Below are positions 8,945-61,160 of a stretch of DNA of 64,000 nt, in pieces. This DNA comes from Tomocerus qinae (lineage: Eukaryota > Arthropoda > Collembola > Entomobryomorpha > Tomoceridae): positions 12,537,001 through 12,601,000 of the forward strand of contig CM034550.1 in assembly GCA_020055645.1 (NCBI GenBank), in the 5' to 3' direction. Positions within the stretch are counted from its first letter, which is position 1. Every line of letters starts with the position of its first letter. The translations under genes were made by a program, and so were the position numbers. Below the pieces are notes generated by a model that worked only from the letters and a program-made list of their open reading frames with translations, made no database searches and was not told the origin of the DNA.

Positions 8945-8990
8945 AAAGTTTCACTTTTCACTATTTGACTGTATTTCCGTAGTGCGTTCG

Positions 8991-10147: not shown

Positions 10148-13100
10148 ATGGAAAATTTTGACAAAGATCAATTACAAGAAGCCATAAAAAACGAAGATGT
10201 TGTAGTTCAGGGACGACGAAATAGGAGTTCTCACTCCATGACACAAAATGCAAGGGTTCAGGAAACCAGTCAAGCCAATGGAATCGAAAGCGGAATTCCT
10301 CATATGGTAACAACCACGATTCGGCACGGTATTCGAGTGATCGGAACTAAACGGAATCCCAATAAGTCCACTAATAGTGTGAAAGCTATTTCGACAATCG
10401 ACAGAATTTATGAAACAAGTGTGTACAAAAAATACAAAGAAGATCTATTAAAATATTCGCATGAAAGACAAAAATTAAAAACTAGCACAAAGACTGAAAA
10501 CAATGCATTTCCTGACCTTGGTAAAAAATTAATTGGAAACAAGAACAGTAAAAAACCAACTGTTTTCCAGCATCGCTTGAAACTTAGAACAGATACAACA
10601 CACTCAAAAGATAAATCAAGGAGTTCGAGTGAAGAAATAGAAAATTCTTCTGGGAAAAGTTCAGAAAGTAGGTCCGAGTATGTTCAACCTGAAAGTGAGA
10701 TAAATATTAGAAAAGCCAAGAAGTTAGGGTTGCAAAATAAGAAGAAAATCAGTAATACAAATACCAAACGGCATACCACAAAAGTGAAACTAAGAATAGA
10801 TGGCAGAAATAATGCAGACACCATAAAATATCCTTTTTCGAGTAAAAAAGTTTCTTTTCCAGCGGTAAGAACATTGTATTCATCAAAAATACAAAGGCAT
10901 AATGTGTCAATGCGTCCACCAAATGTCCACAAATCACGTTCTCAAACAATACAAGTTTCCGAAAATAGAAAGAATCCGTCCAACAATAATAATAACATCA
11001 ATAACAATATTTCAGTCAAATCTTCCAAGTTCAAAAGCTTTATTAATATCGCCAATGGATGGAGAGAAAAAGTCTACGAAGTGCAATTTGCAGAACTGCC
11101 CCAAAAAATTGGTACTACTATTTAATAACTATTAATTAATAACATAAACATTATTTATATAACTTATATGAAATTACTATTTTCAGTATCATAGATAATA
11201 CATAGAATTAATGACCTACTCCTACTATAGGTAAAGGGGGCGAAGTAAGACACAGTACAGAATCTGAAGAAAGTGAACCTACGGACGATATAAAAGTTTC
11301 GAGAAGAAAAATTCATTCCCAAAAGTGGGAAAAGCATAGTCTGACGCTACAACGTCTGCAACAGGATCTTCCAGGTATGGAATAAAATTTAGTTTTGCTT
11401 ATTTTAGGAAATCGGAACTATTTCTTCCACAGATGTCATGTTAGTTATGATTTCTTATGAATTATGATAATTCATACTCTAAAATAGAGTCAGCTCATGG
11501 TATCAACGTTGCACGTGAAAGTGATGCCTCTTCTGATTCTGGTTTTTGGAGAAAACCTTTTAAGAAAACTAGCTCAGTTGTTCCTACTGATACTACCTCA
11601 CATATGAATACATCTACTTCGGAAAAGAAACTTGTACATCCAACAAACGGTGTGTGATGAATTTTATTTTATGATGATTTTGTGATTCTGGCAAGTAATG
11701 ATAATGAAACAATAATTGAAGCGCTATTTATTCAAAATTTAAATTTCCATGTGCAGAAAGTAAAACCGGAAGAAGGCGGCACCCACAATCTGCTAAAAAT
11801 GTAATTTCGTATTCGGAGACAGATCAGTCATCTGTAGTCGAAGATTCTAAACCATCTGGATTTACAAAAACAGGTAGTAAGAAACAACAAACAGATTGTT
11901 TTTGTCACACTAACCATAGTGTATCTATGTCACATTGAAAACATTTTAGTTTACGTAGTAATAAAAAACCGAAGTACAGCGACAGAAAATTCGCCTGAAG
12001 TAGTAGATGATATAACTGAAATTAAAAGTGCTGACATAAAACATAAGCGTCTTTCTTCGAACGCACATGATAAATCAAGTAAACGCTCAAAGGGTATGTA
12101 AATATACAATAATTTCCTAATATACATAATCAAATTCTATTGATGGTAAAACATTAATTTTTGATTGAAAATAAAACCACAAAAAAAGATGGAAGAAGGC
12201 TAATGGAAGAAAGTTCGATTAAGCAATCTCTTGGTGATGTTTCTGAAACACCAGCACTCAGTCAATCAAGTATAAATGGTAGTTAACATTTTTTTACATA
12301 ATAATGTACTGTTGACTCACAGGTTTCGTATACTTTTTCAAATTCTGACCACACTCAAAAACGATTCTGATTGGTCGAAATGTTTTTCGATTAGCCAATG
12401 AAATTGCAGAGATTCATAATCAAATTCTATATGCTCCCTAGTAACTACCCCAAGGGGTAACATTTCATGTCACAATGCTCTCAATGGTGAATAGCTGTGC
12501 AATTATGGTACGATAATGCAAACTAAAGGTTTTACATTATCGAAAACTCATTTTACGTTGAAATCTTATTCGTAGACAGAGTGACAGAGAACCGAGTATA
12601 GGAAGAGTATAATTTAAAGCAACAAAGTGCTTTATTATACTTTAAACAGTGAACACTGAATATATCAATCCTTATATTATTACGGGCGGGCAAGTACTTA
12701 CTGGCGTGAATGGTGTAACAATAAATCACATTACATACAATTACAGGCTATTTATGCAGGTGTAGTGTACTCGAACTACATAGATAGTGTAATTGTTTAC
12801 ATTTTAGAATTGTAGAAAATAGCATTTCTTCACTAAATTAATATTGATACATACACAAAACCAACTTTTACATAATTAGCTGCGTAAAATACTAATGCAA
12901 TGCTAAGCTTATTAATATGGAAGTTTACATCTTGAAAATAGCAAGTTAGTGGACCAACTTTCGAACTGAAAATTTATAAATAGACTGCAACAAGGAGAAA
13001 TGATTGAGACAGCTACGATTAATACAATTATAACAAAGGATTTTAGCTTTTAGCCTGTAATTGTATGTAATGTGATTTATTGTTATACCATTCACGCCAG

Positions 13101-22627: not shown

Positions 22628-25600
22628 ATGGAAAATTTTGACAAAGATCAATTACAAGAAGCAATAAAAAACGAAGATGTTGTAGTTCAAGGACGACGAA
22701 ATAGGAGTTCTCGCTCCATGACACAAAATGAAAGGGTTCAGGAAACCAGTCAAGCCAATGGAATCGAAAGTGGAATTCCTCGTATGGTAACAACCACGAT
22801 ACGCCACGGCATTCGAGTGATTGGAACAAAAAGGAATCCTAATAAGCCCAATAAAAGTGTGAAAGCTATTTCGACAATCGACAGAATTTATGAAACAAAT
22901 GTTTACAAAAAATACAAGGAAGATCTACAAAAATATTCGCATGAAAAACAACAATCAAAAACTAACATAAAGACTGAAAACAATGCATTTCTCGATCTTA
23001 GTAAAAAATTAATTGGAAACAACAGTAAAAAACCAACTGTTTTCCAGCATCACTTGAAACTCCGTACAGACTACACACAAGGTTCAAAATATCCAACAAT
23101 TTCAAAAGATAAAACGAAGAATTCAAGTAAAAATGTTAATAACTCTTCGGGAAAAAGTTCGGAAAGTTGGTCCGAGTATGTTCAATCTGAAAGTGAGAGA
23201 AATATTAGAGAACCCAAGAGGCAAGGATCGCAATATAAGAAAATCAGCAATATAAATACCAAACCGCAGAGCGCAAAAGTGAAATTAAGAAAAAGTGACA
23301 GAAATAACGCAGCTTCTAAAAAATACCATTTTCCCAGTAAAAAGGTTTCTTTTCCAGCAGTAAGAACATTGTATTCTACAAAAATACAAAGGCATAATGT
23401 GTCAATGCGTCCACCAAATGTCCATAAATCACGTTCTGAAACGGTAAAAGTTGTCGAAAATCGAAAGAATCCATCCAACAATAATAACAACATCAACAAC
23501 AATATTTCAGTCAAATCTTCCAAGTGCAAAAGCTTTATTGATATCGCCAATGGATGGAGAGAGCAAATCTACGAAGTTCAATTTGCAGAACTGCCTCAGA
23601 AAATTGGTATTATTTAGCAAACCATATATACATATAATATTTAAGGGATTATTTTCGGTATCATCCTAGAATAATTTACATTCAATTGATAACAATAACT
23701 ACCTTACTAAAAATTATTTCCAATTCTCTCTAATTCCAATTAAATCTAATTATTATTTCCAAACGTAAAGATGGCAAAAAACGACACAGTTCATCAGAAT
23801 CTGAAGATGTAAGATCAACTTTGAACTCACAGATGGAACAGTCTCAGTTTCATAATATTGATGATTCCGAAAGTGAATCCACGTTCGATGTAAAAGTTAT
23901 GAAAAGAAAAATCTCTTTAAAAACTAGGAAAACTCACGATGGAACAACTACTTTTGCGATAGGTATTCAATTTAATTTTTACTTATTTTAAGAAATCGGA
24001 ACTGTTTCTTTCAAAGAAGTCAGGTAATTAATTATGATTTCTACGAAAAAGGGGACAAAATCGAAGGAAGACAAAACTCAGAACCGAAAGAAAGTGCAAA
24101 CTCCAAAATGGAGTCAACTCATGGTGCCGAAGTTGCTGCATCGCAAGAAATTGAAAGTGAATCCTCCTTTGTTCCTAGTTTTTGGAGAAGACCTTTTGTA
24201 AAAACTGGCTCTGCTGTGGCTACTGATACTGCCTTACAAATTGATACATCTGGTCTGTCGAAGAAACTTCTACATCCGACAAAGGGTGTGTGATGAATTT
24301 TGTTTTATAGTGTTTGTGATATTTTGACTGAATGCTTGCAAGCAATAATTACAGACAAATAGTTTTCAAAGTTTTAATTTTGAATTACATGTGCAGAAAA
24401 TAAACCCGAAAGAAGGCGGACACCGCACAATGATAAAAATTTAATTTCCTATTCGGGGACAGATAAATCGACTGTAGTCGAAGACTCTAAAGTATCTGTA
24501 GCTGTAAAAGAAGATCCTAAGCAGCAACACACAGGTGAATTATTGTTTTTGTAACACTAACCATATACCTCTGTAACATTGAAAATAAAATTTTAGTTCA
24601 CGCAGTAGTAAAAGAACACACAAGTAGAAGTAATCAGATCAAACCAGAAGAAAGTTCATACGCATCGACAGAAAAACCTAGCGAAGTAGTTAGTACTATT
24701 ACAGAATCTGAAATTGATAGTGTTGACATTAAACCAAAGCCAATTGGAAAACACACTCGTCTTTCTTCGAATGAACATGATGAAACAAACAGTAAACATG
24801 CAGAGGGTATGTAGTATGTAATAGTAATTAATTATTCATTAAGATTATAGTATCGTATAATATAGTATATAATTTTATAAATTAAAAACATTATAATTGG
24901 TTGTACATGAAATCACAAGGTGGAAGAAGGAAAACAGGGAACGAGAGTGAAAAAAATTTGATTAAGCAGTCTCTATTTATTGATGTTTCTGAAACACCAT
25001 TACTTAGTGAAGCAAGTGTAGATGGTAGTTCAATAGCATATTTTGATGGTAATATTATGGCTCCGATTCAACTACATCCACCAATCAATGGTAATTGTCA
25101 CATTTTAAAAATGTATAATTACTAAGGCATCTTCGCAATTTAATCTAAGCCAAACCCAAATGAAAGTTTGATTTTTCTTATGATTCTCATATTCCCAACA
25201 GCGAACAAAACTAAAGAAACGAAGACCCCCCAAGAAGAAAGTTCCAACTCTTCTTCAGATCTCGATTTGTATAACGAACTGATTAATGAAGGAAATCAAA
25301 GGGAAGACGAGTGGTTGGGATACACCGGAAGCGAGTCCTTCGAAGACGTAGAAGTAATAATAGAAACTGACCCTGATAATAAATCCCAAGGAAATAAAAT
25401 ATTGTAAACACCTACCCATTTTTATGATTTTGATATTCTTTGCTTTGCATTCTGCAGATTTTATTTTTTAACCCTTTTTCGCAACTTTTTCGCGAAAATA
25501 AGACTATGTAAATATTTAAATAAAATAGGATGTAATTTGTACCCCAAATATTTAACTCCAAATAGTTAACCTCAAATACTTGATTTATCAGATATAAACT

Positions 25601-31864: not shown

Positions 31865-33258
31865 GATTCCGGAGAAATTGGGAAAAATTCCGGAGAAATT
31901 GGGAAAAATTCCGGAGAAATTCGGAAAAATTCCGGAGAAATTCGGAAAAGTTCCGGAGAAATTGGGAAAAATTCCGGAGAAATTGGGAAAATTTCTGGAG
32001 AAATTCGGAAAAATTCCGGAGAAATTGGGAAAAATTCCGGAAAAATTCCGGAGAAATTCGGAAAAATTCCGGAGAAATTGGGAAAATTTCCGGAGAAATT
32101 CGGAAAATTTCCGGAGAAATTGGGAAAAATTCCGGAGAAATTCGGAAAATTTCCGGAGAAATTCGGAAAATTTCCGGAGAAATTGGGAAAAATTCCGGAG
32201 AAATTCGGAAAAATTCCGGAGAAATTCGGAAAATTTCCGGAGAAATTGGGAAAAATTCCGGAGAAATTCGGAAAATTTCCGGAGAAATTGGGAAAAATTC
32301 CGGGGAAATTGGGAAAATTTACGGAGAAATTGGGAAGAATTCCGGAGAAATTCGGAAAATTTCCGGAGAAATTGGGAAAAATTCCGGAGAAATTGGGAAA
32401 AATTCCGGAGAAATTCGGAAAAATTCCGGAGAAATTCGGTAAATTTCCGGAGAAATTGGGAAAAATTCCGGAGAAATTGGGAAAAATTTCGGAGAAATTG
32501 GGAAAATTTCCGGAGAAATTGGGAAAAATTCCGGAGAAATTCGGAAAATTTCCGGAGAAATTGGGAAAAATTCCGGAGAAATTCGGAAAAATTCCGGAGA
32601 AATTGGGAAAATTTCCGGAGAAATTGGGAAAAACTTCGGAGAAATTCGGAAAAATTCCGGAGAAATTCGGAAAATTTCCGGAGAAATTGGAAAAAATTCC
32701 GGAGAAATTCGGAAAATTTCCGGAGAAATTGGGAAAAATTCCGGGGAAATTGGGAAAATTTACGGAGAAATTGGGAAAATTTCCGGAGAAATTGGGAAAA
32801 ATTCCGGAGAAATTCGGAAAATTTCCGGAGAAATTGGGAAAAATTCCGGAGAAAAAATTCCGGAGAAATTGGGAAAAATTCTGGAGAAATTGGGAAAAAT
32901 TCCGGAGAAATTGGGAAAAATTCCGGAAAAATTGGGAAAAATTCCGGAGAAATTCGGAAAATTTCCGGAGAAATTGGGAAAAATTCCGGGGAAATTGGGA
33001 AAATTTACGGAGAAATTGGGAAAATTTCCGGAGAAATTGGGAAAATTTCCGGAGAAATTGGCAAAAATTCCGGAGAAATTCGGAAAATTTCCGGAGAAAT
33101 TGGGAAAAATTCCGGAGAAATTGGGAAAAATTCCGGAGAAATTGGGAAAAATTCCGGAGAAATTCGGAAAATTTCCGGAGAAATTGGGAAAAATTCCGGA
33201 GAAATTGGGAAAAATTCCGGAAAAATTGGGAAAAATTCCGGAGAAATTCGGAAAAATT
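31865..33258. repeat. 1.4-kb minisatellite, 21-bp unit
   Basis: About 66 tandem units of the form CCGGAGAAATTGGGAAAAATT, with common variants (CGGAAAA for GGGAAAA; GGGGAAATT; TTACGG). The unit is a multiple of three and lacks stop codons in all three forward frames and one reverse frame. This explains the long spurious open frames (up to 509 codons, heptads such as PEKLGKI, FRRNWEK and SGEIGKN). No start context, splice context or non-repeat protein is attached, so it is not called coding. Variants recur in blocks, which suggests higher-order duplication. Confidence 0.92.
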
Positions 33259-40826: not shown

Positions 40827-43800
40827 ATGGAAAATTTTGACAAAAATCAATTACAAGAAGCCATAAAAAACGAAGATATTGTAGTCCGGGGACGACGAAA
40901 TAGGAGATCTCGCTCCATAACACAAAATGAAAGGGTTCAGCAAACCAATTCAAGTCAAGTCAATGGAATCGAAAGTGGAATTCCTCGTATGGTAACAACC
41001 ACGATACGCCACGGCATTCGAGTGATTGGAACAAAACGGAATCCCAATAAGCCCAATAATAGTGTGAAAGCTATTTCGACAATCGACAGAATTTATGAAA
41101 CAAATGTGTACAAAAAATACAAGGAAGATCTGCAAAAATATTCTCATGAAAAACAAAAATCAAAAACTAGCACAAAGACTGAAAACAATGCATTTCTGGA
41201 CATTCTGGACCTTGGTAAACAATTAATTGGAAACAACAGAAAAGAAGCAACTGTTTTCCAGCATCACTACACACAAGGTTCGAAATATCCAACAATTTCA
41301 AAAGATAGAACGACGAATTCAAGTAAAAATGTAAATAACTCTTCGGGAAAAAGTTCGGAAAGTTGGTCCGAGTATGTTCAATCTGAAAGTGAGAGAAATA
41401 TTAGAGAACCCAAGAAGCTAGGGTCGCAATATAAGAAGAAAATCAGCAACATTAATACCAAACGACAGAGCACAAAAAGGAAATTAAGAAAAAGTGACAG
41501 AAATAACCCAGATACTAAAAAATATCGTTTTTCCAGTAAAAAGGTTTCTTTTCCAGCAGTAAGAACATTGTATTCTACAAAAATACAAAGGCATAATGTG
41601 TCAATGCGTCCACCAAATGTCCACAAATCACGTTCTCAAACAATACAAGTTTCCGAAAATAGAAAGAATCCGTCCAACAATAATAACATCAACAACAATA
41701 TTTCAGTCAAATCTTCCAAGTGCAAAAGCTTTATTGATATCGCCAATGGATGGAGAGAGCAAATCTACGAAGTGCAAATAGCAGAAGTGCCTCAGAAAAT
41801 TGGTAACTACTATTTAACTACTAAAGTATCAGGGCCACATAGGGGTTGGGGCCCTGGCTCCTCTCCCCGGAATCGTAGAAATGAAAGAAAATGTTGTTTA
41901 AAAATCCAAAAGTTTTTCGAAATTGGTGTTTAATTTCACTTAAAATTCGACTTTGAATTTGAAATTTGCCACCCCTGAAATATTTTCTAGCAGAGGCCCT
42001 GGCTATTACTATTTTCAGTATTTCAAGTAGGTATTATAGAATAATAAATTGCTAATAATAACTATCATTTTCAAAGGGAAAGGTGGTGAAAATAAACACA
42101 GACCAGAATCTGAAGATGTAAGATCAACTTTGAACACACAGCTCGAACAATCTCATAAAATAGATGACTCCGACAGTGAATCCTCGGTTAATATAAAAGC
42201 TATTAAAAAAATTCCTTCGAAACATTGGAAAAAGAACAATCTAGCGTCACAACATTTGCAGCCGGAACTCCCAGGTATGCAATTTAATTTTACTAAATGA
42301 AACTATTTCTTCCAAAGAAGTCATAAGTCAAAGAAGTCATTATAGTTATGATTTCTAAAAGGTGACAAAATCGAAGCAAGACAAAACACAGAATCGAAAG
42401 AAAGTGTATCTTCTAAATCTAAAATGGAGTCATCTCATGGTATCGAGGTTGACGCATCACCTGATATTAACAGTGAATCCTCTGACTCTGTTTTCAGTTT
42501 TTGGAGAAAACCTTTAGTAAAATCTAGCTCTTCTATTGTTGTTAATGCCCCACAAATTGATACATCTGGTTTGGCGAAGAAACTTCTACATCCGGCAAAA
42601 AAGGGCATGTGATGAATTTAAAATAATGTTTGAAGGATTCCGTGAATATTGCCATATTTTGAGATATTGAATGCTAACAATCAGTAATTGTAGATAAATT
42701 ATTTTTCAAAATTTTATTTTGATTTCCACGTTTAGGCAATAAAGCCGGAAGAAGGCAAACAATGCTACCAGCTAATAACATAATTTCATTTTCGGAGTCA
42801 GAGGAGACAGATGAACTGCCTGTAGTCGAAGATTCTAAAGCATCTTTAATTACAAAAATAGGTCCTAAAGACCAAAAAACAGGTGATTTAAATTTATTGT
42901 TTTTATGACAAGAACAAGAACCATAATATTTATACTAGGTAACATTGATAATAACATTAGCTGGCAAACTTTTAATTTTGATTTCCATTTAAAGGCAATA
43001 AAGCCGGAAAAAGACAAACAGTGCTACTACCGCCTGCTATTAACATAGTTTCGGATTCGGAAACAGATCAGTTGCCTGTAGTCGGAGATGCTAAAGCATC
43101 TCTAATTGCAAAAATAGGTCCTAAAGACCAAAAAACAGGTGATTTAAATTTATTGTTTTTATGACAAGAACCATAATATTTATACCTGGTAACATTGATA
43201 ATGACATTAGCTTGCAAACTTTTAATTTCGATTTCCATGTAAAGGAAATAAAGCCGGGAAAAGGCAAACAGTGCTACTACCGCCTGCTATTAATATAGTT
43301 TCGGATTCGGAGACAGATCAGTTGCCTGTAGTCGAAGATTCCAAAGCATCTCTAATTGCAAAAATAGGTACTAAAGACCATAAAACAGGGGATTTAAATT
43401 TTTTTTAATGACAAGAACCATAATATTTATACTTGGTAACATTGATAATGACATTAGTTTGCAAACTTTTAATTTTGATTTCCATGTAAAGGCAATAAAG
43501 CCGGAAGAAGACAAACAGTGCTACCACCTGCTATTAACATAGTTTCGGATTCGGAGACAGATCAGTTTCCTGCAGTCGAAGATTCCAAAGCATCTCTAAT
43601 TGCAAAAATAGGTTCTAAAGACCAAAAAACAGGTGATTTAAATTTATAGTTTTTCTAACTCGAACTAGTACCTAGTAACATTGATAATGACATTAGCTGG
43701 CAAACTTTTAACTTTGATTTCCATCTAAAGGCAATAAAGCCGGAAAAAGACAAACAGTGCCACCGCCTGCTATTAACATAGTTTCGGAATCGGAGACAGA

Positions 43801-46800
43801 TCAGTTGCCTGTAGTCGAAGATTCCAAGGCATCTCTAATTGCAAAAATAGGTCCTAAAGACCAAAAAACAGGTGATTTAAATTTATTGTTTTTATGACAA
43901 GAACCATAATATTTATACTTGGTAACATTGATAATGACAGTAGCTGGCAAACTTTTAATTTTGATTTCCATGTAAAGGCAATAAAGCCGGAAGAAGACAA
44001 ACAGGGCTACCACCTGCTATTAACATAGTTTCGGATTCGGAGACAGATCAGTTTCCTGCAGTCGAAGATTCCAAACCATCTCTAATTGCAAAAATAGGTA
44101 CTAAAGACCAAAAAACAGATGATTTAAAATTTTTTTAATGACAAGAACCATAATATTTATACTTGGTACTTGGTAACATTGGTAATGACATTAGCTGGCA
44201 AACGTTTAATCTTGATTTCCATGTAAAGGCAATAAAGCCGGAAAAAGACAAACAGTGCTACCGCCTGCTATTAACACAGTTTCGGATTCGGAGACAGATC
44301 AGTTTCCTGCAGTCGAAGATTCCAAAGCATCTTTAATTGCAAAAATAGGTCCTAAAGACCACAAAACAGGTGATTTAAATTTATAGTTTTTTTCTAACTC
44401 GAACCATGTACCTAGTAACATTAATAATGACATTAGCTGGCAAACTTTTAATTTTGATTTCCATTTAAAGACAATAAAGCCGGAAAAAGACAAACAGTGC
44501 TACAGCCTGCTATTAACATAGTTTCGGAATCGGAGACAGATCAGTTGCCTGTAGTCGAAGATTCCAAAGCATCACTAATTGCAAAAATAGGTACTAAAGA
44601 CCAAAAAACAGGTGATTTAAATTTATTGTCTTTATGACAAGAACCATAATATTTATACTTGGTAACATTGATAATGACAGTAGCTGGCAAACTTTTAATT
44701 TTGATTTCCATGTAAAGGCAATAAAGCCGGAGGAAGACAAACAGTGCTACCGCCTGCTATTAACACAGTTTCGGATTCGGAGACAGATCAGTTTCCTGCA
44801 GTCGAAGATTCCAAAGCATCTTTAATTGCAAAAATAGGTCCTAAAGACCACAAAACAGGTGATTTAAATTTATAGTTTTTTTCTAACTCGAACCATGTAC
44901 CTAGTAACATTGATAATGACATTAGCTGGCAAACTTTTAATTTTGATTTCCATTTAAAGACAATAAAGCCGGAAAAAGACAAACAGTGCCACCGCCTGCT
45001 ATTAACATAGTTTCGGAATCGGAGACTGATCAGTTGCCTGTAGTCGAAGATTCCAAGGCATCTCTAATTGCAAAAATAGGTACTAAAGACCAAAAAACAG
45101 GTGATTTAAATTTATTGTCTTTATGACAAGAACCATAATATTTATACTTGGTAACATTGATAATGACAGTAGCTGGCAAACTTTTAATTTTGATTTCCAT
45201 GTAAAGGCAATAAAGCCGGAAAAAGACAAACAGTGCCACCGCCTGCTATTAACATAGTTTCGGAATCGGAGACTGATCACTTGCCTGTAGTCGCAGATTC
45301 CAAAGCATCTCTAATTGCAAAAATAGGTACTAAAGACCATAAAACAGGTGATTTAAATTTTTTTTAATGACAAGAACCATAATATTTATACTTGGTAACA
45401 TTGATAATGACAGTAGCTGGCAAACTTTTAATTTTGATTTCCATGTAAAGGCAATAAAGCCGGAAAAAGACAAACAGTGCCACCGCCTGCTATTAACATA
45501 GTTTCGGAATCGGAGACAGATCAGTTGCCTGTAGTCGCAGATTCCAAAGCATCTCTAATTGCAAAAATAGGTACTAAAGACCACAAAACAGGTGATTGGT
45601 GATTTAAATTTATAGTTTTTTTCTAACTCGAACCATGTACCTAGTAAGATTGATAATGACATTAGCTGGCAAACTTTCAATTTTGATTTCCATTTAAAGA
45701 CAATAAAGCCGGAAAAAGACAAACAGTGCTACCGCCTGCTATTAACACAGTTTCGGATTCGGAGATAGATCAGTTTCCTGCAGTCGAAGATTCCAAAGCA
45801 TCTCTAATTGCAAAAATAGGTCCTAAAGACCAAAAAACAGGTGATTTAAATTTATAGTTTTTCTAACTCGAACTAGTACCTAGTAACATTTATAATGACA
45901 TTAGCTGGCAAACTTTTAATTTTGATTTCCATTTAAAGACAATAAAGCCGGAAAAAGACAAACAGTGCTACCTGCTGCTATCAACATAATTTCATTTTCG
46001 GAGTCAGAGGAGACAGATGAACTGCCTGTAGTCGAAGATCCTAAAGCATCCTTAATTGCAAAAAATGGTCCTAAAGACCAAAAACCAGGTGATTTAAATT
46101 TATTATTTTTGTAACAAGAACCATAATATTTATACCTGGTAACATTGATAATGACATTAGCAGAGTACAAAATACCATTTGATTGAATTATTTATTTATT
46201 CTCGGCGAGCCTTGACCCATAGTATACGAATTTTACAATGTCATAATTACATAGATATCATAGAAATAAGGATTTTGCCACATGCCGACCAACTGACCTC
46301 TTCAGGGTTTAAACCCCTTACTTCCCGCATACCTCCAATTGTTATGCACCCGGTGAGTCAGGACTTAACCACACTATCGGTTAAGCTATTACACTCCGCA
46401 CACATGGACCTAAAATACCCCATTTCTTTTCACAATATCTCACATAACTAGAATTGTGTCAAATTGCATTTTACATTTAAAGTAATAGAAATTAAATACG
46501 GGGTATTAAAAAATTGGGATTATTTTAATGGAATTTGTCATTACAATAATGTAAATTTCCTTTAATAACTTTGTCTTTGAAACAATAGAACATGTCTTTA
46601 AATTTAATATTCAGTCAGTAAATGATTAATGTAATTTTTCAGTAAAACAATCAAACTTATCAGTTTTCGTCAAATGAAATTTGTCGGTATTGTCGGTATA
46701 TAATATATTAACAAGGCTTGGTCTGAAAATTAAAATTTCAAAGTTTTGTGCACATTGTGGTCCAACAACTTTTATGAAAAAATTGCGTGTTATGTTTTTT

Positions 46801-49800
46801 TGATTTTTAAATCAAGTTTGAAAACCACCAAAAACCGATGATTTTTGGCCTCGCATACGCCGACGGCAGTTATGAGACATACCCATTAACATTACTTATT
46901 AGCCTACAATTATAATACAGGTCGTTATAATACTATCTACATTAAACTTTTAGAATAATTGGCGTATCCATAGGCCTGTTAGGGTCTATGGATACCCCAA
47001 TTTTAATTTTTAGGCCACATTGTGCACAAAACTTTAAATTTTTAATTTTTAAACCACAAAGTAAATCATGAAAAGAATACATTGAACCATTGAAATCAAT
47101 GAATGAAAACCACTATTGAGTTTTTGGTCAGAACTAGCGTTTTCATCGCTAGTTTTAATAAAAACGTTAAAAAAAATTTTTCCGAACATTTTCGAAATTG
47201 TTTTCAAAATTTTAAAATAATTTTGAAAACCTGAAAAAGGGGGCCATGTGAGGAAATCGTTTGCGAGAAGAATGGCGCCGGTTTCATGAAAATCGGTCAA
47301 GTAGTTTAAAAAGGAATCATAGATGAACAACATAAGTCGGAAAAACTTAAAAACGACGAGTTTTCAAAAAAATCCTGATATTGGTTTTTTCATATCACTA
47401 AGTAGATTAGAATCAGAAAGTAATAACTTTGGCTGTGACATTTTGTTCCCAGCCTGCGTGGTCTCTTATGTATTTACTCTCAGTCATGGAAACTGTCATT
47501 ATTTTCTGTCAGTTTCCTTAAATATTGTACCTTATTTTACTACCAACTTTCATTTATTTACTGCCATTTTGCTTTAATTTTTAAAGACAATTTCATTCAA
47601 AGATAATGACAACATTTTAAAAATAATGACGTCTACTTTTTACTGACAAATTACATTAAAATAAAGACGGGTTAATTGGCAGTTAAGTAATAGAAGCAAT
47701 TAAATACAATCTCGCATTATCTTATTACATTTCTAAACTATTAATAAATTTTATCCTATTCAGAGCAGCTTTGACGTAATTTAACAAAATTGTTGTGATC
47801 CAAGTTTTTGCTGTAAAATAATCGATACATGCTGTGAACATCTTTTAGGTTCAGACTTTCAATTTCCCTTCTGTCGTGAATACGGCATTCAGTCAAAAGA
47901 TGCCAAAAATTATTTGGCCTTTGCAAATTACACAAGTCACATAATGAACTATCTTTAAATAAAAATATCTTACTTTTATAGAATAACATGTCACAATTAA
48001 CTCTTAGCTGACTTAGTAGCCTACCATCCCAGAAAGATAATTTGTGAGATTGTGGGCTATTATAAATAACTACATCGAATAACCGAATAACTGATAGTAG
48101 TTATAATTATCATATTTTAATAGCGTTTCTAAATCCTCTTCTCTACTTCGTAGAACCAATCTATTATAAATATCTGTACAAGGTGAGCCAGAACAATGTA
48201 CACAAAGTCTAGGCCTTATAGGTCCTGAACGGAGGCTGCTACGGAAATGAGACGACCACCATTGGAAAGAGGGATAACCTAAATTAAAATGGGCTATACG
48301 AATAATTTTATTGAGCTGCATTTAGCAAATTAAAAATGAAGAAGTCGAAGGCCAAAATTCAGTGTTAAATTCCCTTTAACTATTAAATTTGTTCGTCGTC
48401 TTTCGTTGATTTTTTGCAACACCTTCCACACGATTTGCAAGCCGAATTGAATATAATAACTTTGAATTTTGGCCTTCGACTTTTTGATTTTTAAATTGCA
48501 AAATGCAGCTCAATAAAAATATTCTTATAGCCCATTTCATTTTTAGGTTATTCCACTTTCCAATGGTGGTCGCCTCATTTCCGTAGCAGCCTCCGTTTAG
48601 GAGCTATAAGGCCCAGACTTTGTGTACATAGTTCTCGCACACGGTGTATATTCAGTAAGAATAGTCAAGCCTGTGTCATTCTCCCACTGATACTCCATAC
48701 CTATTTTATTTTGTAAATTTTTTGCACTGGTTTACCCAGTTGTAATTATGTTTACGTCCTTATTTGCTAACCTTTTGAGGGACATAAAGCATAACTTAGC
48801 CTACCTGTTAGTGTCCTTGGCATATACTTTTAATAAAAAACTAAATCTCTTTGCAATCAAGACCCACAATTTACTTCGGTTCGTTTCTAACCTTGCAACA
48901 CATTTCGGTACAGTCGCTTTTACACCCAGAACTTTGCGTATAAATTTCGTTTAACAGAGTTCAATCTTATCCAGGTATTACAAAATACCATTTACTACTT
49001 ACCACTGGAAAGTGGTTTTTAATGGTATTTAACGTTAAATACCACCAGCTAAAAACTAGTGGTACGTGGTATAAATTGGTAAAAATGGTAAAAAAATAGT
49101 TTCATTTAAATTTCGTGTTTAAATTTTGAATAAAATTGGGTGCCAAAGGATGAAATAGCTTAGCAGCTGATGATTGTTGTCACAAATTGATAAATGTCCA
49201 TTCAATCAGAGTTGGATTCAACCGATGGGGACACTAATCACCCTTATTTGCCGATTGAGAAAGTAATTGAAATTAAATTGGCTCATTCATATCAATTTTA
49301 AATTGCCGATACCAAATGCAATCTTGGTTTTAGTAACATTTTTTTGTAACTTTTGGGGAACAACCAAATGAATAGGATTACTTTGATTAACTAAAAGACT
49401 AATTGGAAATATTTCAGAGAAATAAAGTTATAAAACCTATATTTTAGTACGTCTTGTGTGTCTATACTAAATACTAATCTGTCTAATAAATCGCTGAAAT
49501 TTACCATTTTTACCATTAAATGCATTTTTAACATTAAATGCATTTTTACCATTAAGTGTAATTTTTACTACTGTGATGGTAAAAACGCCTAAATAGTGGT
49601 TAATTAGCTTGCAAACTTTTAATTTTGATTTCCATGTAAAGGCATTAAAGCCGGAAAGAGGCAAACAGTGCTTCCTTCTGCTATTAACATAGTTTCATAT
49701 TCGGAGACAGATCAATTGCCTGTGGTGGAAGATTCCAAAGCATCTTTAATTGCAAAAAAAGGTTGATTTAAATTTATAGTTTTTCTAACTCGAACCATGT

Positions 49801-52800
49801 ACCTAGTAACATTGATAATGACATTAGCTTGCAAACTTTTAATTTCGATTTCCATGTAAAGGAAATAAAGCCGGGAAAAGGCAAACAGTGCTACTACCGC
49901 CTGCTATTAACATAGTTTCGGATTCGGAGACAGATCAGTTGCCTGTAGTCGAAGATGCCAAAGCATCTCTAATTGCAAAAATAGGTCCTAAAGACCAAAA
50001 AATAGGTGATTTAAATTTATTGTCTTTATGACAAGAACCATAATATTTATACTTGGTAACATTGATAATGACAGTAGCTGGCAAACTTTTAATTTTGATT
50101 TCCATGTAAAGGCAATAAAGCCGGAAAAAGGCAAACAGTGCTACCTCCTGCTATTAACATAGTTTCAGATTCGGAGTCAGAGGAGACAGATGAACTACCT
50201 GTAGTCGAAGATTCTAAAGCATCTTTAATTACAAAAATAGGTCCTAAAGACCAAAAAACAGGTGATTTAATTTTATTGTTTTTGTAACAAGAACCATAAT
50301 ATTTATACCTTGTGACATTGATAATGACATTAGCTTGCAAACTTTTAATTTTGATTTCCATGTAAAGGCAATAAAGCCGGAAAAAGGCAAACAGTGCTGT
50401 CTCCTGCTATTAACATAGTTTCAGATTCGGAGACAGAGGAGAAAGGTCAATTGCCTGCAGTCGAAGATTCTAAAGGATTTTTAATTGCAAAAAAAGGTTG
50501 ATTTAAATTTGTAGTTTTTGTAACACGGACCATGTACCTGGTAACATTGATAATGTCATTAGCTTGCAAACTTTTAATTTCGATTTCCATTTAAAGGCAA
50601 TAAAGCAGGAAAAAGGCAAACAGTGCTACCTGCTGCTATTAACATAATTTCGAATTCGGAGACAGATCAATCGTCTTCAGCCGAAGACTCTAAAGCATCT
50701 GTAGTTACAAAAAAAGGTCCTAAGGAACAACGAATAGGTGAATTGGTGCTTTTGTAAACTAACTACTATATACCTGTCACCTGTGACATTGAAAATGACA
50801 TTTAAGTTTACGTGTAGTAAAAGAAGACAAAATGAAAAGGAATAAGATCAAACCTGAAGAAAGTTCATACGCATTGACAGAAAAATCTAGTGAAGTAGTT
50901 ACTGCTATCACAGAGTCTAAAATAGAAAGCGTTGACATGAAACCAAAAATAAAGCCAATTGGAAAAAAAATTCATCTTTCTTCGAATGAAACTAATAAAC
51001 CAAATAGAAAACGTGTAAAGGGTATGTAATAATATACTAATTTCATTTCAAGATTATGTATCATAACATGATTTTATGCAGTAAAAATTTTATGATTGAT
51101 TGTACATGAAACGTCTTAAAAGCTGGAAGGCGAACAGGAGACAACAGTGAAAAAGGTTTGATTATGCAAGTATTTGATGTTTCTAATACACCAATACTCA
51201 GTCAATCAAGCGTAAATAGTAGTTCAACAACACATTTTGATGGGAATATTATGACTCCAAATCAACTACATCCAACAGTCAGTGGTAATTGTCACATTTT
51301 ATGGAAGCTTATACGTGGAGATACTTATTGAGGCATCTTCGCAATTTTATTATCACAAAACAGAACCCAAATGAAAGTTTCTAGATTTAATTCTTATGAT
51401 TCCCAACAGCGAGCAAAACTAACGAAATTAAGTTGACCCAAGACAACAGTTCCAGCAGTTCTTCAGATCCCGATTTTAAAGAACATGCTGAAGAAGAAGA
51501 GCAAAGAGAAGACGAGTGGTTGGTATACACCGGAAGCGAGTCATTGGAAGACATGGAAATAGTTTTAGAAAATGACACTAATGATAAGCCTCAAGGAAAT
51601 ACAATATTGTAAGTACTGCACCTAATACCTATTTTGATCAACTTTTGTCATATTTTGCTTGCATTGTGCAGATTTCATTTTGACTATTCGTCCACTCAAA
51701 ATCAAACTAATTGACCCCTTCGATATTTTTCGTTTTTGCAACTTTTTCGCGAAAATGGGCCTATGAAAATATTTAGATGTAATTTATACCCCAAATAGCT
51801 GGCCAATAAAAATTATTCGTCGCATAAACTACGTGGTTAAACCTGTCCAGTTAAATTGGTTTATTTACGGGATATGGAAAAACTGGTTAATACTTAGTTG
51901 AGTGGCCCTGACAAGTTATAGTTTATTAAGGACAATAATTTCGTGAAATATGTAATTATTTATTTAATTTATTTAATATTATTGTTCTCCAGTCGGAAAA
52001 AGGTTGTAGAACAGGAATGCTATGAGTTGATGCAAGCTGTCTATCCATTATTCGCATGCATGAAAGTGTCGGGACGAATGCCACTGACAACTTACATTGA
52101 AGATAAATGCGTTAAATTTTCACTTTCCAAGAAATCATTAGAGTTTAAAGTCTTTTGTGTCACAACTTTTTTAATCGGACTAATGGCTATCCTTCTATTA
52201 GTTGGAATGCTTGTGGTGTTTAGTCTTCATGCACCGTACCCTTTCTATGAGTAAGTAAATATAATATCATTTTTGTAAAAAATAGTGAAAACCTTGGAAA
52301 AAAATGAATAGGAAACGTACGTGGCTTATTGAAATTCATTTAAAACTGTAGACAGATCCAGAAACTGGAAGTAGACAAGTATTGGGTGATGACAATGGTC
52401 ACATTTCTTCATATGGCCTACATTGTAGCTTGGAGTTTAGCAATTATTTTTGGCAAAGGTGTGTATCTAGCCGAATTTCTTACTCGATGGAATTTGGCTC
52501 TAATAACCACCAAGTATTATACAGTATCAGAGAAAGTACGAAAATACATCTTGGTGGAACTTGGACTGAACCTCGTTTACTCGTTGCTAGTGATCATTTT
52601 ATTTATCGGGGATTGGCTACCTGCCGTAAGAGGTACAAGTGGGTTGATTGCAATGTCCATTTTCGACCCTTTCATTTTCCGTACTCGACTGCACCGAAAT
52701 TTCTTTTATCTTCAAATATTTGGCATGCTTCTTCATCTGTACGTGGTTTTCTGTTCGAGGATCATCACAGTTCTTGTTCTCGTCTACTGCAGAATCCTTG

Positions 52801-55800
52801 AAAATTATACTACACGATGGAATCTGCGATTAGCATACAGATTGCAAATATGTAATTAATAAACAATGAGATTTGTTTTGTTGTATTGTAGCCCCACCAT
52901 TTTGGTGGTCTGTTAGTCTTTACTAACAATGTGATAATAATTTTATTTCGGATAACCTTTACAGTTGGAAAGCAGGTGAATGAACAGTTTTCCCAATACT
53001 TCAAAATCATTCCGTGTATGAAGTTATTTGCAGAAAATTTAATAGTGTCCAGTTTTCTTCGACACACTGGAAAAGTATTTAGGGATGCTCTGATGCCTTA
53101 CTTCATTTTGAAATCGATGGAATTGGTCATTTGCATGTATCACTGCGCTTCTTTTTTCACGAAAGAATCTATCAAATTTAATGAAACTTACGTCGACAAT
53201 GTGGACTCAGATTCTATCCCTGTTACTGTAAGTGTCCATATTTAGGTTTTAGAACTTTTGTTCCACTTATGAAAGACTTAAGTTGACTTATAATTGAGGT
53301 AATTTGATTAAATTTTATTATTGTTTTAGTATACCGATCCTAAGGAAATGATCGTCACTTCGGCTTACTTCTATATGTTTTTGAGCGTTTTTAGCTGTAT
53401 TGTGACAACTGAGTTGATTCGTAATTGTGGATGGGCGGTATGATAAAATATAATTCATCAAATGAATTTCCAGAAAGTATAATGGGTTTACATTTTACAT
53501 ATATGGCCTATAACTACAATTTCATAACCTTAAAATACGTAATTTTACCGCAGGTTGTTTGTGGCTATGGATTTGTAAGAAAGTATGGACTAGCCTCTTG
53601 TAAAACCTCAACGGAAAGAAGATTTGTATGATTTGATTCCATTGATTTCAATTAATTTTTCTGCTTTTGTTTGTTTTTCATTAATATATCGTAGATAAGC
53701 ACGTATACAGGACTGAGTTTCGGGGGACGGGTTTATGTTTCATATAGATATTTTCGTTATATATGTTGTTTCGAAATGTTTTGGCATTTTTTGACAAAAA
53801 TGAGTCAAAAATGGCGAAATTTTTGCTATTTTGGAAAAAAAATCTTTTTCTTGGATTTCGGGGACGCTTTAGCCAGTAACACTCCGCTCCCAATACGTCC
53901 TTGCCTTGTTTGGTGAATGCATTTCATAAAACAAAGGAATATTTTTTTTTAATTACTACACCCTATCGTGACCTTGTACCTCCATTGTATCCCCTGGAGG
54001 GCTGGACTTCTATGGGATTTTTCAAAAGATCATTGGCAGTGGGTCTAAGTCCAAGGTCACCTTAGGGAATATTAGTAAGTTTTAAAATTAACTCCTTACC
54101 TTCAGCAAACGAAGTTAGGGCACTTCGCATGAAAATTTATTTCCGACCTAGCATAACAAAAGCAAATCTATAGCTATTATTTCTTGTATTACACAAAATG
54201 TATTTTTATTAATGGGAAATGTTTTTCTATAAGATCCTGAGTTTACAGAATATGTTTGCTCCAAGAAACGATTTTTATATTGCTCCAGGAATAAATGGAC
54301 GTTTTGTACTTAAGGTAAGCATTTTTTACTTATATCTCAATAAAACGTGATGGTCTTATTTTAAGATATAATTCACAAATTCCAAGATTTATTTAATTTT
54401 TTGCAGTTTTGGGCAGTTGTATTTACATACTGGATTTATATGGTTCAGTTTTCTCCTGATCGCTTGCAAAAGACCACAATTCATGCATGCAGTCCTCAAG
54501 GAGTTTGTGTTGAATTAAGAATATCCAGGTAAATGTCGAAACGGAAGTATAAATTTATTTTATCATTGGCAGTGGAATTAAAATTGCACTGGTCACTGTT
54601 ACGATTATTATTTACATACTTTCGAATATGGACTATTATTATAATGTTGAATAGTAAGTGGAGTTTATTAATGATAATGGAGTAGTATATTGGAATTTAA
54701 TTTTTCTTTATTTTTTTGATTTCATCCGTGATTGAAAAGTTGGTCTCCTCCAAATGAAATTCAAATCCTTGATAATATTAAGCTAACCCCCAGTATAACA
54801 AAACCAACTACAACGACTACAAAACCTACTACAACAACAACTACAACAACAACAACTACAACGCCAACTACTACAACAACTACAACGCCAACTACAACAA
54901 CAACTACAACGCCAACTACAACAACTACAACGCCAACTACAACAACAACTACAACGCCAACTACAACAACACCAACAACACTTGCACCACTACCTATACC
55001 ATGCCCTGAGGGTGGGGACATTAGAAATTTAAATTCATATAATGACGAATATGGGGCAATAGTTGTACCACTTGAAGCATATCAGGAGTGTCCAGGTCGG
55101 ACAGAATCAGAAAAATTCCATATACCTCTGCTTTTTGACTACAGTATGAGACCAATTCCTCCTTTCCAAACCCCTTTATTTGACGTTGTTCAATGTAATG
55201 ATCGCACTGAATATGGCCCTTACACCAATATACGACCGGAATATATCAGAATCAGAAATTGTCGTGGAGAAGAGGTATCCCTAGAGGAAAGAGATGATTG
55301 TGGAAATTTACCAAGTGAGTAAATTACTGTATTCTAAACAACATCTTTATCCAACAGGTTTAAGAGTCCGGTTCCCAATATAGCCCCAAAAAAGGTTCGA
55401 GTTTTGAAAACTAAATTAGGTTGCTAATAACGTTAGACGAAACACAAAGCCCTCCGAACTTTTTTTAGCTCGTCTGAGGACGCGAGCGTAAAGAATCCCA
55501 GTCCTTCCGTCCGTAACTCTTAAACACAATGACAAATTCGAGCAAACTTGCCAAAACAATTTTTAATGTTTTTACAGTAAAAACTCTCCAACAAAATGGC
55601 GGATTTGAACCTCCAACTCTGCATCACCAAATCTTGACCACTGGTGGAAACAAATACATTGCTTGCTGCTACGAATATCATGGCCTTGTTACTACTAGGT
55701 GGGATGCAGATGGCCAGATATTAAATCCACATACCCGACGATGTAATATACCAAGGGCGGAAGATATAGAAAAGAGGTGCGATATACATAAAGCCAACAG

Positions 55801-56863
55801 CATTGTGCATCGAAGGACAAATAACATGTACTCTAGACTTTACTTACTCGACCAAAGATACAAAATTGTTGGTCGACCAAGAAAGATACTGGATGATTGT
55901 ATCTGTAATCACAATCCCACAATACGCGTACCAGCTTGTGATCAATTAAGCACAAAATTAAAACCAAGAAATCAAGGCGGAACAGGAGGTGAAAAAGCTG
56001 AGATTGCTCAGTGTGTAAACGAGGGCAACACAAGATTTTACTACCCCTTGTTATATAATGACTATGGGTTGTATATCCAACCATTTAAATATGGCACCGT
56101 TTCTTGCTCTCCATTTGGTGGTACTATTAGTATACATTTAATTGACCTATCATTAGGGTATTTAGAAAGAGTCACTTCTTACGGCAATGCACCCCATGAC
56201 CATCTTTACAATTACGCCGGAGAGAAAATATCAGCTAGTGGAAGAGGTAGACTAAATCCACATTTTTATTATTATCAATAATGACTTCTAAGGCATTAAT
56301 ACATATAATTGTATCCTACACTTCAAACCTCGTAAATTAATCCATGAAAATTATGACTCGCAGACCTAATTGAGACTGACTATTGTGGCAACCTTAAAAT
56401 GAAAAGGGAATCTACTAGTTTTGGAGTGACATCCCCAATCAAATTAGTTATGTTAAAGAGCGATATAACTGGATACCCAGATAATGTGTTAATGTGCTGC
56501 TTTGACTATAAGTCCCTCGCTGATAGCGGAGGAAATCGTTTCAGACCGGAAGAAGTGAAAGATGAACTTGTCGACGAATATTGCAATGTACCAATGAAGG
56601 CCAAATTTGCAAGCCAGTGTGATACTAAATTAAGGAGAAGATACAGGGATGTGGAGGACGCTTTTCTCTCCAATTTTCCTAACTTCCCAGACTCCGATCC
56701 TATAACTGATGACGAGAGACAGGACTGGACAGAATGTATATGTACCACAAAGGTGAAGTTTGAGCAACAGCCAGTGGAGTCCAGGGAGGAGTTGCGTCAA
56801 ATTTGCTCGGACCGTATGTTGGCGGCCGGTTTTTCTCAACATTGGGAACCTCCTGCCCATTAA
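40827..56863 (+). CDS. gene C: paralogue with exon 4 amplified to 19 copies
   Basis: Exons: 40827-41802; 42077-42274; 42362-42604 (GC donor); 19 exon-4 copies, listed under the two arrays; exon 5 at 50807-51021; 51123-51284; 51410-51608; 51993-52250; 52352-52851; 52965-53227; 53330-53437; 53554-53625; 54234-54314; 54407-54528; 54740-55314; 55578-56246; 56364-56863. The exon-4 copies add 2679 nt (893 aa). Without exon 5 the model totals 7605 nt (about 2534 aa). Exon 5 is 215 nt instead of a multiple of three and would shift the frame to a stop, so it is either skipped (both ends are phase 1) or the gene is impaired. Copies 3 and 6 have lost the GT donor. The membrane and ectodomain exons are intact and very close to A and B. 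The stalk is about 65 residues of Thr/Pro. Function unknown. Confidence 0.7.
42722..46161 (+). repeat. exon array of gene C, first block (14 units)
   Basis: Units of 239-259 bp, each an exon of 141-150 nt plus an intron of about 100 nt. Exons: 42736-42882, 42995-43138, 43245-43388, 43492-43632, 43731-43871, 43978-44118, 44229-44369, 44471-44611, 44718-44858, 44960-45100, 45207-45347, 45451-45591, 45700-45840, 45939-46088. A typical exon reads GNKAGKRQTVLPPAINIVS, then DSETDQLPVVEDSKASLIAK, then IGTKDQKT. All are open, multiples of three and phase 1 at both ends. Acceptors are AAAG|GC or AAAG|AC and donors ACAG|GTGATT, except copies 3 (GG) and 6 (AT). Confidence 0.9.
46183..46415 (-). mobile_element. 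possible tRNA-derived SINE
   Basis: The minus strand shows an A-box-like TAGCTTAACCG (46388-46378) and a B-box-like GGTTTAAACCC (46315-46305) about 60-70 bp apart. A tail GAATAAATAAATAATTCAAT follows at the left end. This is the layout of a tRNA-derived SINE. No cloverleaf or second copy is visible in the window. Confidence 0.4.
46728..47050. repeat. inverted-repeat fragment inside the composite insertion
   Basis: AAAATTTCAAAGTTTTGTGC at 46732 is mirrored by TGTGCACAAAACTTTAAATT near 47031. A nested hairpin (GTATCCATAG/CTATGGATAC) lies at 46963-46994. Probably the remains of a short DNA element. 47054-47755 holds nothing I can name. Confidence 0.4.
47756..48110 (-). pseudogene. 3' end of a non-LTR retrotransposon (LINE) polymerase
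   Basis: The minus strand reads SFWDGRLLSQLRVNC, then CDLCNLQRPNNFWHLLTEC and a further 45 residues to a stop. A C-x2-C...H-x4-C motif close to the C-terminus after an RT-thumb-like segment is typical of Jockey/CR1/RTE-type LINE ORF2 ends. The piece is 5'-truncated; another frame (RLVLRSREEDLETLL, 48160-48075) may be its upstream part after a frameshift. Confidence 0.45.
48179..48646. mobile_element. 468-bp foldback element with TA duplication
   Basis: Inverted arms of about 180 bp begin CAAGGTGAGCCAGAAC and, mirrored, CACCGTGTGCGAGAAC, flanked by TA (48177-48178, 48647-48648). The arms share the internal core GGAGGCTGCTACGGAAATGAG with the element at 58679-59813. Confidence 0.75.
49603..50790 (+). 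repeat. exon array of gene C, second block (5 units)
   Basis: Exons 49642-49761, 49862-50005, 50112-50261, 50368-50496 and 50597-50737 (120, 144, 150, 129 and 141 nt). All are open and phase 1 at both ends. Copies 15 and 18 are shortened at the 3' side with a donor AAAAG|GTTGAT instead of ACAG|GTGATT. The last unit is the most diverged and closest to the single exon 4 of gene B. Confidence 0.9.
53697..53903. mobile_element. possible hAT-like MITE in intron 12 of gene C
   Basis: The ends AAGCACGTATAC and, inverted, CAAGGACGTATTG resemble those of the element at 19591-19740, and the interior also has opposed G- and C-rich ends. The stretch is absent from the matching intron of A and B. No clean target duplication was found. 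Confidence 0.4.
54795..54985 (+). repeat. Thr-rich coding repeat in exon 15 of gene C
   Basis: ACAACAACTACAACGCCAACT-type units encode runs of Thr broken by single Pro, a stalk of about 65 residues. The unit differs from that of A (no Ile), so the two stalks expanded separately. Confidence 0.8.
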
Positions 56864-59813: not shown

Positions 59814-60005
59814 TATTTAAAATCACAGCCCAGCTTTTTCAGAAATTCAAGTTTGTGTGTCTACTTTATCCACAATGTAAATACATGCGTCCACTTTTAC
59901 AAATACTTTGCATAACTATTATTTAGTGCTAATTATTGTAACTGTGTGTTTTTTTGTAAATCGTTTCGTTAATGAGATAGTAAAACATTTGCATTTTAAC
60001 CCTGA

Positions 60006-61160
60006 TGTGGACGATACATTTCATCAATGAAATCCAGAAGGATCACACGGAATAAGGGATTCCATTGCTGAGTGTTAAAACACAAGTACAAAGTCAAACG
60101 GCAAACTTTTTTACTACCCCTTATTATATAATGACTGTATGGAAAGTATGTCCTACCATTTAAATATGATGGGGACTTTAATTGCTACCAAATGGGTGGC
60201 CATACTCATCCAAGCTTAATTGACACTTCAGTAGGGTATTTAGAAAGAGTCACTTCTTACGGCAACGCACCTCATGACAATCTTTACAATTACGGCGGAG
60301 AGAAAATATCAGCCCATGGAAGAGGTAGATTAAATCCACATTTTTATTATTATCAATAATGTGACTCTTCTATAATGTTTGAAGCATAATATATTTCAAA
60401 TCTCGTAAACTAACCTTTGAAAATTATGACTAGCAGATTTAATGGTTGAGTTTCTTATTATAAGTCTCTGGTGGATGGGCGACCTCACTAAGGAATAATC
60501 ATCGTTATTGCGCTCGATAGATGCCCCACCACGGCACTGAAGGTAACGTGCATGTATAGTCAAATGCAGTGGTGGGACATCTATCGAGCACAATAACGAT
60601 GAATTATTCCTTAGTGAGGTCGCCCATCCAACAGAGACTTATAATAAGAAACTCAACCAAAACGTTAAAATGAAAAATGCATCTACTTCTTTTAATGTGA
60701 TATCATCTGTCAACTTAGTTATGTTAAAGGAAGATGTAACTGGATACTCAGATAAGTTAATGTGCTGCTTTGACTATAATTCCTTACCTAATGCAATGAC
60801 ACAAATAAATATAGACCAAAATCATCGGATATGGTTGAACTTGCCGACAAATATTGCAATGTACCAACTACGGCCAAGTTTGCAACCCAATGTGCTACTA
60901 AATTAATGAGAAAATACAGGCCAGTGGAAGAAGCTTTTCTCGCCATATTTTCTAACTTTACAAATTTTGGTGCAATAATTGATGACGGGAGAAAGGACTG
61001 GACAGAATGTATATGTATCACAAAGGGAGGGTATAGGGAAGTGGAAAATACAGAGTACAACAGGAACGAGAGAGGGGAGATGCGTCGTCGTTGCTCGCGT
61101 CTTATGAAAATGGCTGGACCACCCTTCTCATTTATGAAATGGAAACCTCCTGTCGATTAA
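60006..61160 (+). pseudogene. decayed 3' end of a gene-B-like paralogue
   Basis: 60006-60324 matches the second half of exon 16 of gene B (GACGATACATTTCATCAA...) but has a TGA for a Gln/Arg position, a TAA after GAGTGT and an inserted base near 60135. The start of exon 17 is replaced by a foldback insertion. 60670-61160 continues exon 17, with a frameshift between DYNSL and MVELADKYC, to the same stop and the same 3' flank. There is no upstream part of the gene. Sequence closeness to B in both exon and flank points to a segmental copy, not a retrocopy, because intron DNA is present. Confidence 0.85.
60443..60659. mobile_element. 217-bp foldback element in the pseudogene
   Basis: Arms of about 90 bp starting TGGTTGAGTTTCTTATTATAA are mirrored at 60659. 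It sits where exon 17 should begin, and about 30 bp of the exon start are missing. TTAA occurs on both sides, but the duplication is not certain. Confidence 0.7.

Follow-up and report, generated by a model that had tools for sequence, protein, structure and literature searches.

Tandem coding repeats whose units carry introns are already known. The kringle IV type 2 (KIV-2) unit of human LPA is large and encodes an extracellular kringle domain, and the units of the human NBPF genes carry introns. Passages of two papers describe how these arrays are built: in LPA KIV-2, exons with their flanking introns make up the repeat unit (PMC4378929), and the Olduvai triplets of NBPF consist of tandem coding units of ∼1.6 kb within the gene (PMC9584774). 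Here we describe gene C, which lies in a 64,000-nucleotide stretch of the genome of the springtail Tomocerus qinae (GCA_020055645.1, contig CM034550.1; C5:12537001-12601000 in our numbering, hereafter the window) and contains 19 short exon–intron units, head to tail within a single gene and with the reading frame kept. The genome comprises 334 Mb in 115 contigs, and unit counts come from this one genome.

The array is real. Our model of gene C has 35 exons and a 2588-residue frame with no internal stop. Unit starts run from 42736 to 50597, and all 19 unit exons are 120–150 nucleotides (nt) long, multiples of three, free of stops and in phase 1 at both ends (phase 1-1), just as the preliminary description of this DNA had stated. 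Exons 2 and 3 and the next two exons after the array are phase 1-1 as well, so the frame is kept when any of these exons or units is skipped. Tandem Repeats Finder reports 14.0 copies of period 247 (42707-46161) and 2.8 copies of period 256 (49800-50498). The array falls into two blocks, of 14 and 5 units, on either side of an insertion in the intron after unit 14. It codes for 879 residues, a correction of the ∼890 first proposed; the whole N-terminal tail would measure ∼1540 residues if all units were spliced in, and ∼700 were there one unit instead of 19. Genes A, B, C and D lie in tandem at this locus, with D just past the window end. The features are listed below, with unit types (first, last, chimera) as defined by the diagnostic columns described after the list; coordinates are those of the window.

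40827..56863, + strand: gene C coding span, 35-exon model, 2588 residues
40827..41802, + strand: exon 1, N-terminal tail (exon model), 95% identical to paralog D
42077..42274, + strand: exon 2, tail, phase 1-1 (exon model)
42362..42604, + strand: exon 3, tail, phase 1-1, GC donor shared with D (exon model, splice scoring)
42736..42882, + strand: unit 1, 147 nt, pure first type (exon model, diagnostic columns)
42995..43138, + strand: unit 2, 144 nt, chimera (exon model, diagnostic columns)
43245..43367, + strand: unit 3, 123 nt with fallback donor, usual donor lost, chimera
43492..43632, + strand: unit 4, 141 nt, chimera
43731..43871, + strand: unit 5, 141 nt, chimera
43978..44097, + strand: unit 6, 120 nt with fallback donor, usual donor lost, chimera
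44229..44369, + strand: unit 7, 141 nt, chimera
44471..44611, + strand: unit 8, 141 nt, chimera
44718..44858, + strand: unit 9, 141 nt, chimera
44960..45100, + strand: unit 10, 141 nt, chimera
45207..45347, + strand: unit 11, 141 nt, chimera
45451..45591, + strand: unit 12, 141 nt, chimera, 7-nt duplication at donor
45700..45840, + strand: unit 13, 141 nt, chimera
45939..46088, + strand: unit 14, 150 nt, chimera, earlier switch point
46167..49607 (approximate), unstranded: insertion of ∼3441 bases, ATTAGC on both flanks, foldback inside
49642..49761, + strand: unit 15, 120 nt, chimera, 20-nt deletion, very weak donor
49862..50005, + strand: unit 16, 144 nt, chimera
50112..50261, + strand: unit 17, 150 nt, chimera, earlier switch point
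50368..50496, + strand: unit 18, 129 nt, chimera, 20-nt deletion, very weak donor
50597..50737, + strand: unit 19, 141 nt, pure last type
50818..51608, + strand: post-array tail exons 50818-51021, 51123-51284 and 51410-51608 (exon model)
51993..54528, + strand: membrane part, seven exons, the last (54407-54528) opening in phase 0 six codons before TYWIYMVQF
54740..56863, + strand: three exons that code for a threonine-rich stretch and a cysteine-rich C-terminal part; the last 610 residues include 24 Cys
11757..11873, + strand: single unit exon of paralog A, upstream donor only
24397..24534, + strand: single unit exon of paralog B, downstream donor

The origin of the array can be read from the units themselves. 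We aligned the 19 units of C with the two of D, its closest paralog (exon 1 identity to C is 95% for D, 86% for B and 79% for A), and took as diagnostic the 64 columns at which C unit 1 and D unit 1 have one state and C unit 19 and D unit 2 another. C units 1 and 19 are pure parental types, and D has one unit of each parental type. All 17 internal units of C are chimeric, with a last-type 5′ side and a first-type 3′ side. The best-fitting single switch per unit matches 961 of 1000 informative sites across these 17 units (88 third-state or gap sites excluded), and units 2, 5, 8 and 10 fit one switch without exception. The switch lies inside the exon, at the same place in 15 of 17 units and earlier within the exon in units 14 and 17. 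Because the units derive from one another by copying, their common switch point represents one event rather than fifteen.

When unit 1 of a two-unit gene undergoes unequal crossing-over with unit 2, the necessary outcome is a first unit, a chimera and a last unit. Given that all 17 internal units are chimeric, the array most likely began by such an event inside the exon of a two-unit ancestor, and amplification probably started from two units, the number in D, rather than from one. The earlier claim of a single such exon in A and B holds (11757-11873; 24397-24534), but the nearest paralog has two. Likewise, the amplified unit does include its intron, as had been proposed, but the chimera alignment suggests that the copied segment is better described as an intron with two flanking half-exons, present 18 times; the exchange unites two coding halves with the frame retained. 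The alignment points to unequal recombination, within which crossing-over and gene conversion are not separable here, and gene conversion could have contributed to array growth.

Internal units differ pairwise by 2.5% to ∼16%. Compared with the pooled synonymous divergence between C and D (0.07–0.12 by region), these values suggest that array growth is roughly as old as the C–D split, or younger. Higher-order repeats of two or three units were considered and rejected: trimers are suggested on visual inspection, but no offset among units 2–13 reaches significance (lowest P 0.054, for offset 5; P 0.10 for offset 3).

Family members were sought across the genome with the best conserved membrane exon as query, and the nine places found (A to I) are a lower bound. 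G lies on contig C1. The other four are on C5, with E and F at 15.51-15.52 Mb (68%), H at 10.99 Mb (42%) and I at 3.08 Mb (30%). Unit counts are 19 in C, two in D and one each in A, B and G. No unit was detected in E or F, where the exon 7 match begins ∼390 and ∼300 bases, respectively, after the exon 1 match ends, and H and I have too few tail matches for units to be counted. A broken 3′ copy of a B-like gene lies between C and D (window 60000-61160), interrupted by a long inverted repeat near 60440-60660. Threonine-coding minisatellites at 16767-17001 (A) and 54798-54981 (C) differ between the paralogs in unit and length. At L011:5180-5260 (C3:31 kb) there is a lone 27-residue match, 59%, to the 3′ half of the unit; no other gene part was found at an expectation value of 0.001 in the 10-kb stretch around it.

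Comparisons within and between paralogs bear on whether the unit exon is under coding constraint. The parental-type units of C differ at 24/138 exon positions versus 38/95 intron positions (P 0.00016), and those of D at 31/135 versus 36/96 (P 0.019). Indels wholly within the exon are multiples of three in all five cases, compared to three of eight in the downstream intron; these counts leave out two donor-touching indels, the 20-nt one of units 15 and 18 and the 7-nt one of unit 12. Changes among the C unit exons comprise 28 synonymous, 47 nonsynonymous and no stop changes, where 19.9, 52.5 and 2.6 are expected, giving an omega-like ratio of 0.61 (one-sided P 0.027; P 0.071 for the lack of stops). 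For the internal units alone the ratio is 0.53 (P 0.013). Across the unit exons, third codon positions vary most (0.135 versus 0.088 and 0.086). Between C and D, the pooled ratio of nonsynonymous to synonymous divergence (dN/dS) is 0.44 in the tail without the units, 0.56 in the membrane part and 1.12 in the C-terminal outer part. Long-term constraint on the unit exon is supported, clearly so by the comparison of the parental-type units.

Splice sites of the units were scored with matrices built from 82 donors and 79 acceptors of non-unit exons in seven family genes, a reference set that includes gene C's own other exons and GC donors (the exon 3 donor is GC in C and in D). Fourteen units have donors near the 25th percentile of the references, and unit 16 lies at the 12th. 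The usual donor GT is lost in units 3 (CAG/GG) and 6 (CAG/AT), where the only in-frame GT remaining, 21 nt upstream, scores at the 3rd percentile; the length and frame given for these two units hold only if that GT is used. Most units have this second in-frame GT. Its better version, GTACTA, occurs in units 3 and 6 and likewise in units 8, 10, 11 and 12, which kept both donors. Such a donor switch has a precedent, since the single unit of gene A has lost the downstream donor and retained the upstream one. Units 15 and 18, which have a 20-nt deletion in common, carry donors that score below all 82 references. Use of all 19 units, which the preliminary description had allowed for, is thus in doubt for two units with the usual donor lost and for two with donors weaker than every reference. 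The second unit of D no longer has the usual acceptor AG; an in-frame AG is present 9 nt downstream. The number of C units included probably varies, given the weakness of their splice sites.

The gene family is very probably a divergent branch of the gustatory receptor (GR)/7TMIC superfamily. The last membrane segment of gene C reads FWAVVF-TYWIYMVQF, and the motif TYhhhhhQF of the seventh transmembrane segment (TM7) is exact in five of seven genes (A, B, C, D and G); the corresponding sequence in E and F is VFLIFL(I/L)QF. In all seven genes (A to G), a phase-0 acceptor lies exactly six codons before the TM7 motif. Among 11 receptor loci of the same genome, an in-phase acceptor is found there in five (L022, L023, L024, L025 and L041) and not in the other six. 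The rule for arthropod gustatory receptors is stated in a passage of PMC2680840, and an intron before the TM7 exon in receptors is described in part of PMC9998090. A receptor-end profile of 10 rows scores the last exon at 10.7 bits in B, 8.7 in A, 6.8 in C, 6.4 in G, 4.1 in D and 0.9 in E; other membrane pieces of C reach up to 3.9 bits, and 2 of 2000 shuffles (1772 reported) reach the value of C. By simple hydropathy, five regions of C pass, and two more were recognized by eye only (exons 52965-53227 and 54407-54528). The models predicted for single exons scored poorly (mean pLDDT 31.7 and 52.1) and were not used.

Gustatory-type receptors place their N-terminus inside the cell and their C-terminus outside it. 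On this topology the tail of C would be cytosolic, as the preliminary description had it, and its Thr/Cys-rich end would lie outside. This end comprises the ∼600 residues that follow the TM7 motif, with a threonine-rich stretch and 24 cysteines, and the part after TM7 is the fastest-evolving region between C and D. Lys, Ser, Asp, Thr and Glu are abundant in the ∼47-residue repeat. Its core, N-x-[IV]-S-x-S-E, is common to the C units and kept in A and G, with S-G at its end in B. Pfam found no domain in the pieces scanned (exon 1 and units 1, 5 and 19). When exon 6 and the unit were compared for common origin, the probability was 12%, and other tail-exon comparisons gave <1%. Judging from sequence, the repeat most likely forms a multivalent string of short docking or phosphorylation motifs, not a folded domain; that a SUMO- or kinase-type motif is among them is our guess.

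The best joint explanation, which we consider reasonably likely, is that gene C is a GR-like (7TMIC) gene whose tail array arose by crossing-over in a two-unit ancestor, followed by further exchange, and that most of its units are translated. An ancestor with two phase 1-1 tail units, like present-day D, would have mispaired these units. Crossing-over within the exon would have given a three-unit gene, its middle exon made of the last unit's front and the first unit's back, and repeated unequal exchange would have expanded this to 17 internal chimeric units. Phase 1-1 borders are frame-neutral and permit both growth of the array and skipping of any unit. We infer translation of most units, with a resulting tail of as many as 19 repeat copies in which Lys, Ser, Thr and acidic residues are abundant.

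A number of observations weigh against this explanation. As to the receptor assignment, the genome has at least 53 matches to Pfam 7tm_7, at least 44 of them over the cut-off (111 of 247 candidates scored), and none of the 53 listed falls in a gene of C's family. Searches of Pfam, PDB sequences and protein databases gave no receptor match, and profile–profile comparison with this genome's own receptors gave 2.3%. Two protein-database searches, which detect only relatives with common short exact words and similar length, returned no relatives of the membrane part among 4266 and 6950 candidates. As to constraint, the omega-like ratio of the internal units is 0.69 (P 0.21) without units 14, 15, 17 and 18, and unit-specific changes are as frequent in exons (32/141) as in introns (20/96). 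For these two reasons constraint since amplification is not proven, and the evidence for it is suggestive only. The mean difference across the array is 0.103 in exons compared to 0.085 in upstream and 0.175 in downstream introns, and the C–D dN/dS exceeds 1 in single exons E6, E10, E16 and E17, the values for E6 and E10 each being based on one synonymous change. As to splicing, 4 of 19 unit donors are lost or very weak, and the unit acceptors score between the 8th and 25th percentiles of the 79 references.

Some of these observations would be expected if the units had been multiplied by recombination and tolerated, mostly skipped or variably included, the long tail having no selected role. We regard such neutral amplification as rather unlikely. 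In its favor are the equal frequencies of unit-specific changes in exons and introns, the four poor donors, the acceptors below the median and the loss of the usual acceptor AG in D's own second unit; the 19 unit exons, however, contain no stop and no frame-breaking indel, and omega-like ratios of 0.53–0.61, for internal and for all units, argue against it. That units 3 and 6 carry the better upstream GTACTA also speaks for use of the units, but this point is weak because units 8, 10, 11 and 12 carry it together with both donors. A far less probable reading is that the gene is a pseudogene or the array an assembly artefact. Repeats are hard to assemble, and a broken 3′ gene copy lies near (∼60000-61160), yet gene C has a 35-exon open frame and pooled dN/dS values below 1 in tail and membrane part. 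Assembly stutter in particular is unlikely because no two units are identical (the closest pair differs at 2.5% of compared sites) and the array sits inside a single 24.26-Mb contig.

It is also possible, if on balance unlikely, that splicing picks subsets of units, yielding either many tail lengths, a version that overlaps our preferred explanation, or one unit at a time in the manner of Dscam. Since exons 2 and 3, the units and the next two exons are all phase 1-1, every subset would be in frame, and the weak donors and the second in-frame GT of most units fit such a scheme. On the other hand, a choice of one unit enforced by frame is not what we observe: with all units phase 1-1, exclusion is not imposed and several units can join in frame (RNA docking sites were not searched for). 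Moreover, choosing one of 19 would add little variety, as internal units are ∼84–97.5% alike.

Under the preferred explanation, a chemoreceptor-type channel would, if the units are used, have rapidly acquired a long multivalent tail on its inner side. A broader prediction, which we put forward tentatively and with considerable doubt, is a new receptor architecture in the springtail lineage, in which a gustatory-receptor-type channel combines a Cys-rich extracellular C-terminal part with an exon-built inner tail, and one paralog adjusts, through unit number and splicing, how many tail motifs it carries. If this were true, recombination within a coding exon would directly set the number of docking sites on a chemoreceptor.

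Other features of the window and genome were noted in passing. A 21/42-base satellite of ∼66 copies at 31866-33258 is open in several frames on both strands. Long retroelement-like reading frames occupy 2787-8950 on the minus strand and look, by eye, to be of BEL/Pao type. Mitochondrial oxidase I sequences occur within the large contig C1 (C1:36670928-36672268; C1:139.1-139.8 Mb) and on C81; those in C1 may be nuclear copies or mis-joined mitochondrial DNA. One of the C1 copies (L051) reads in the invertebrate mitochondrial code and, among the best 120 of 8000 entries scored, is 96% identical to Tomocerus caputiviolaceus and 93% to Aphaenomurus interpositus; the named entries that follow are springtails or clusters with broader labels, in keeping with a springtail close to Tomocerus.

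Among receptors, the tail of the gustatory type is usually short, whereas the front tail of gene C would measure ∼1540 residues. Where the TM7 motif was found in receptor loci of this genome, the frame ends 5–40 residues later, whereas that of C continues for ∼600. Passages of PMC9998090 describe 7TMIC-like proteins with long N-terminal additions (GrlHolozoa, trypanosome GRL1 and PHTF), some with WD40 or MORN; these additions are folded repeat domains or of unknown structure, whereas the tail of gene C lacks Pfam domains in the pieces scanned and was amplified exon by exon in one paralog. Springtail receptors are mentioned in PMC5644144 and PMC6080948, with nothing of this kind in the relevant passages, and among the matches listed for literature on such receptors and on tandem exon amplification, as far as their text was available, there is nothing like gene C. 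The arrays known from human genes differ in other ways. Compared to LPA KIV-2, the gene C unit is only ∼0.25 kb, contains one short exon and encodes part of a receptor's inner tail. NBPF encodes an unrelated protein and has higher-order triplets, whereas a higher-order period in gene C is not significant. What is new in gene C is the short single-exon unit, its place in a receptor tail and the visible chimeric origin: with a two-unit sister gene adjacent, pure end units and 17 recombinants between them, the emergence and expansion of a coding repeat array can be followed from footprints that are still intact.

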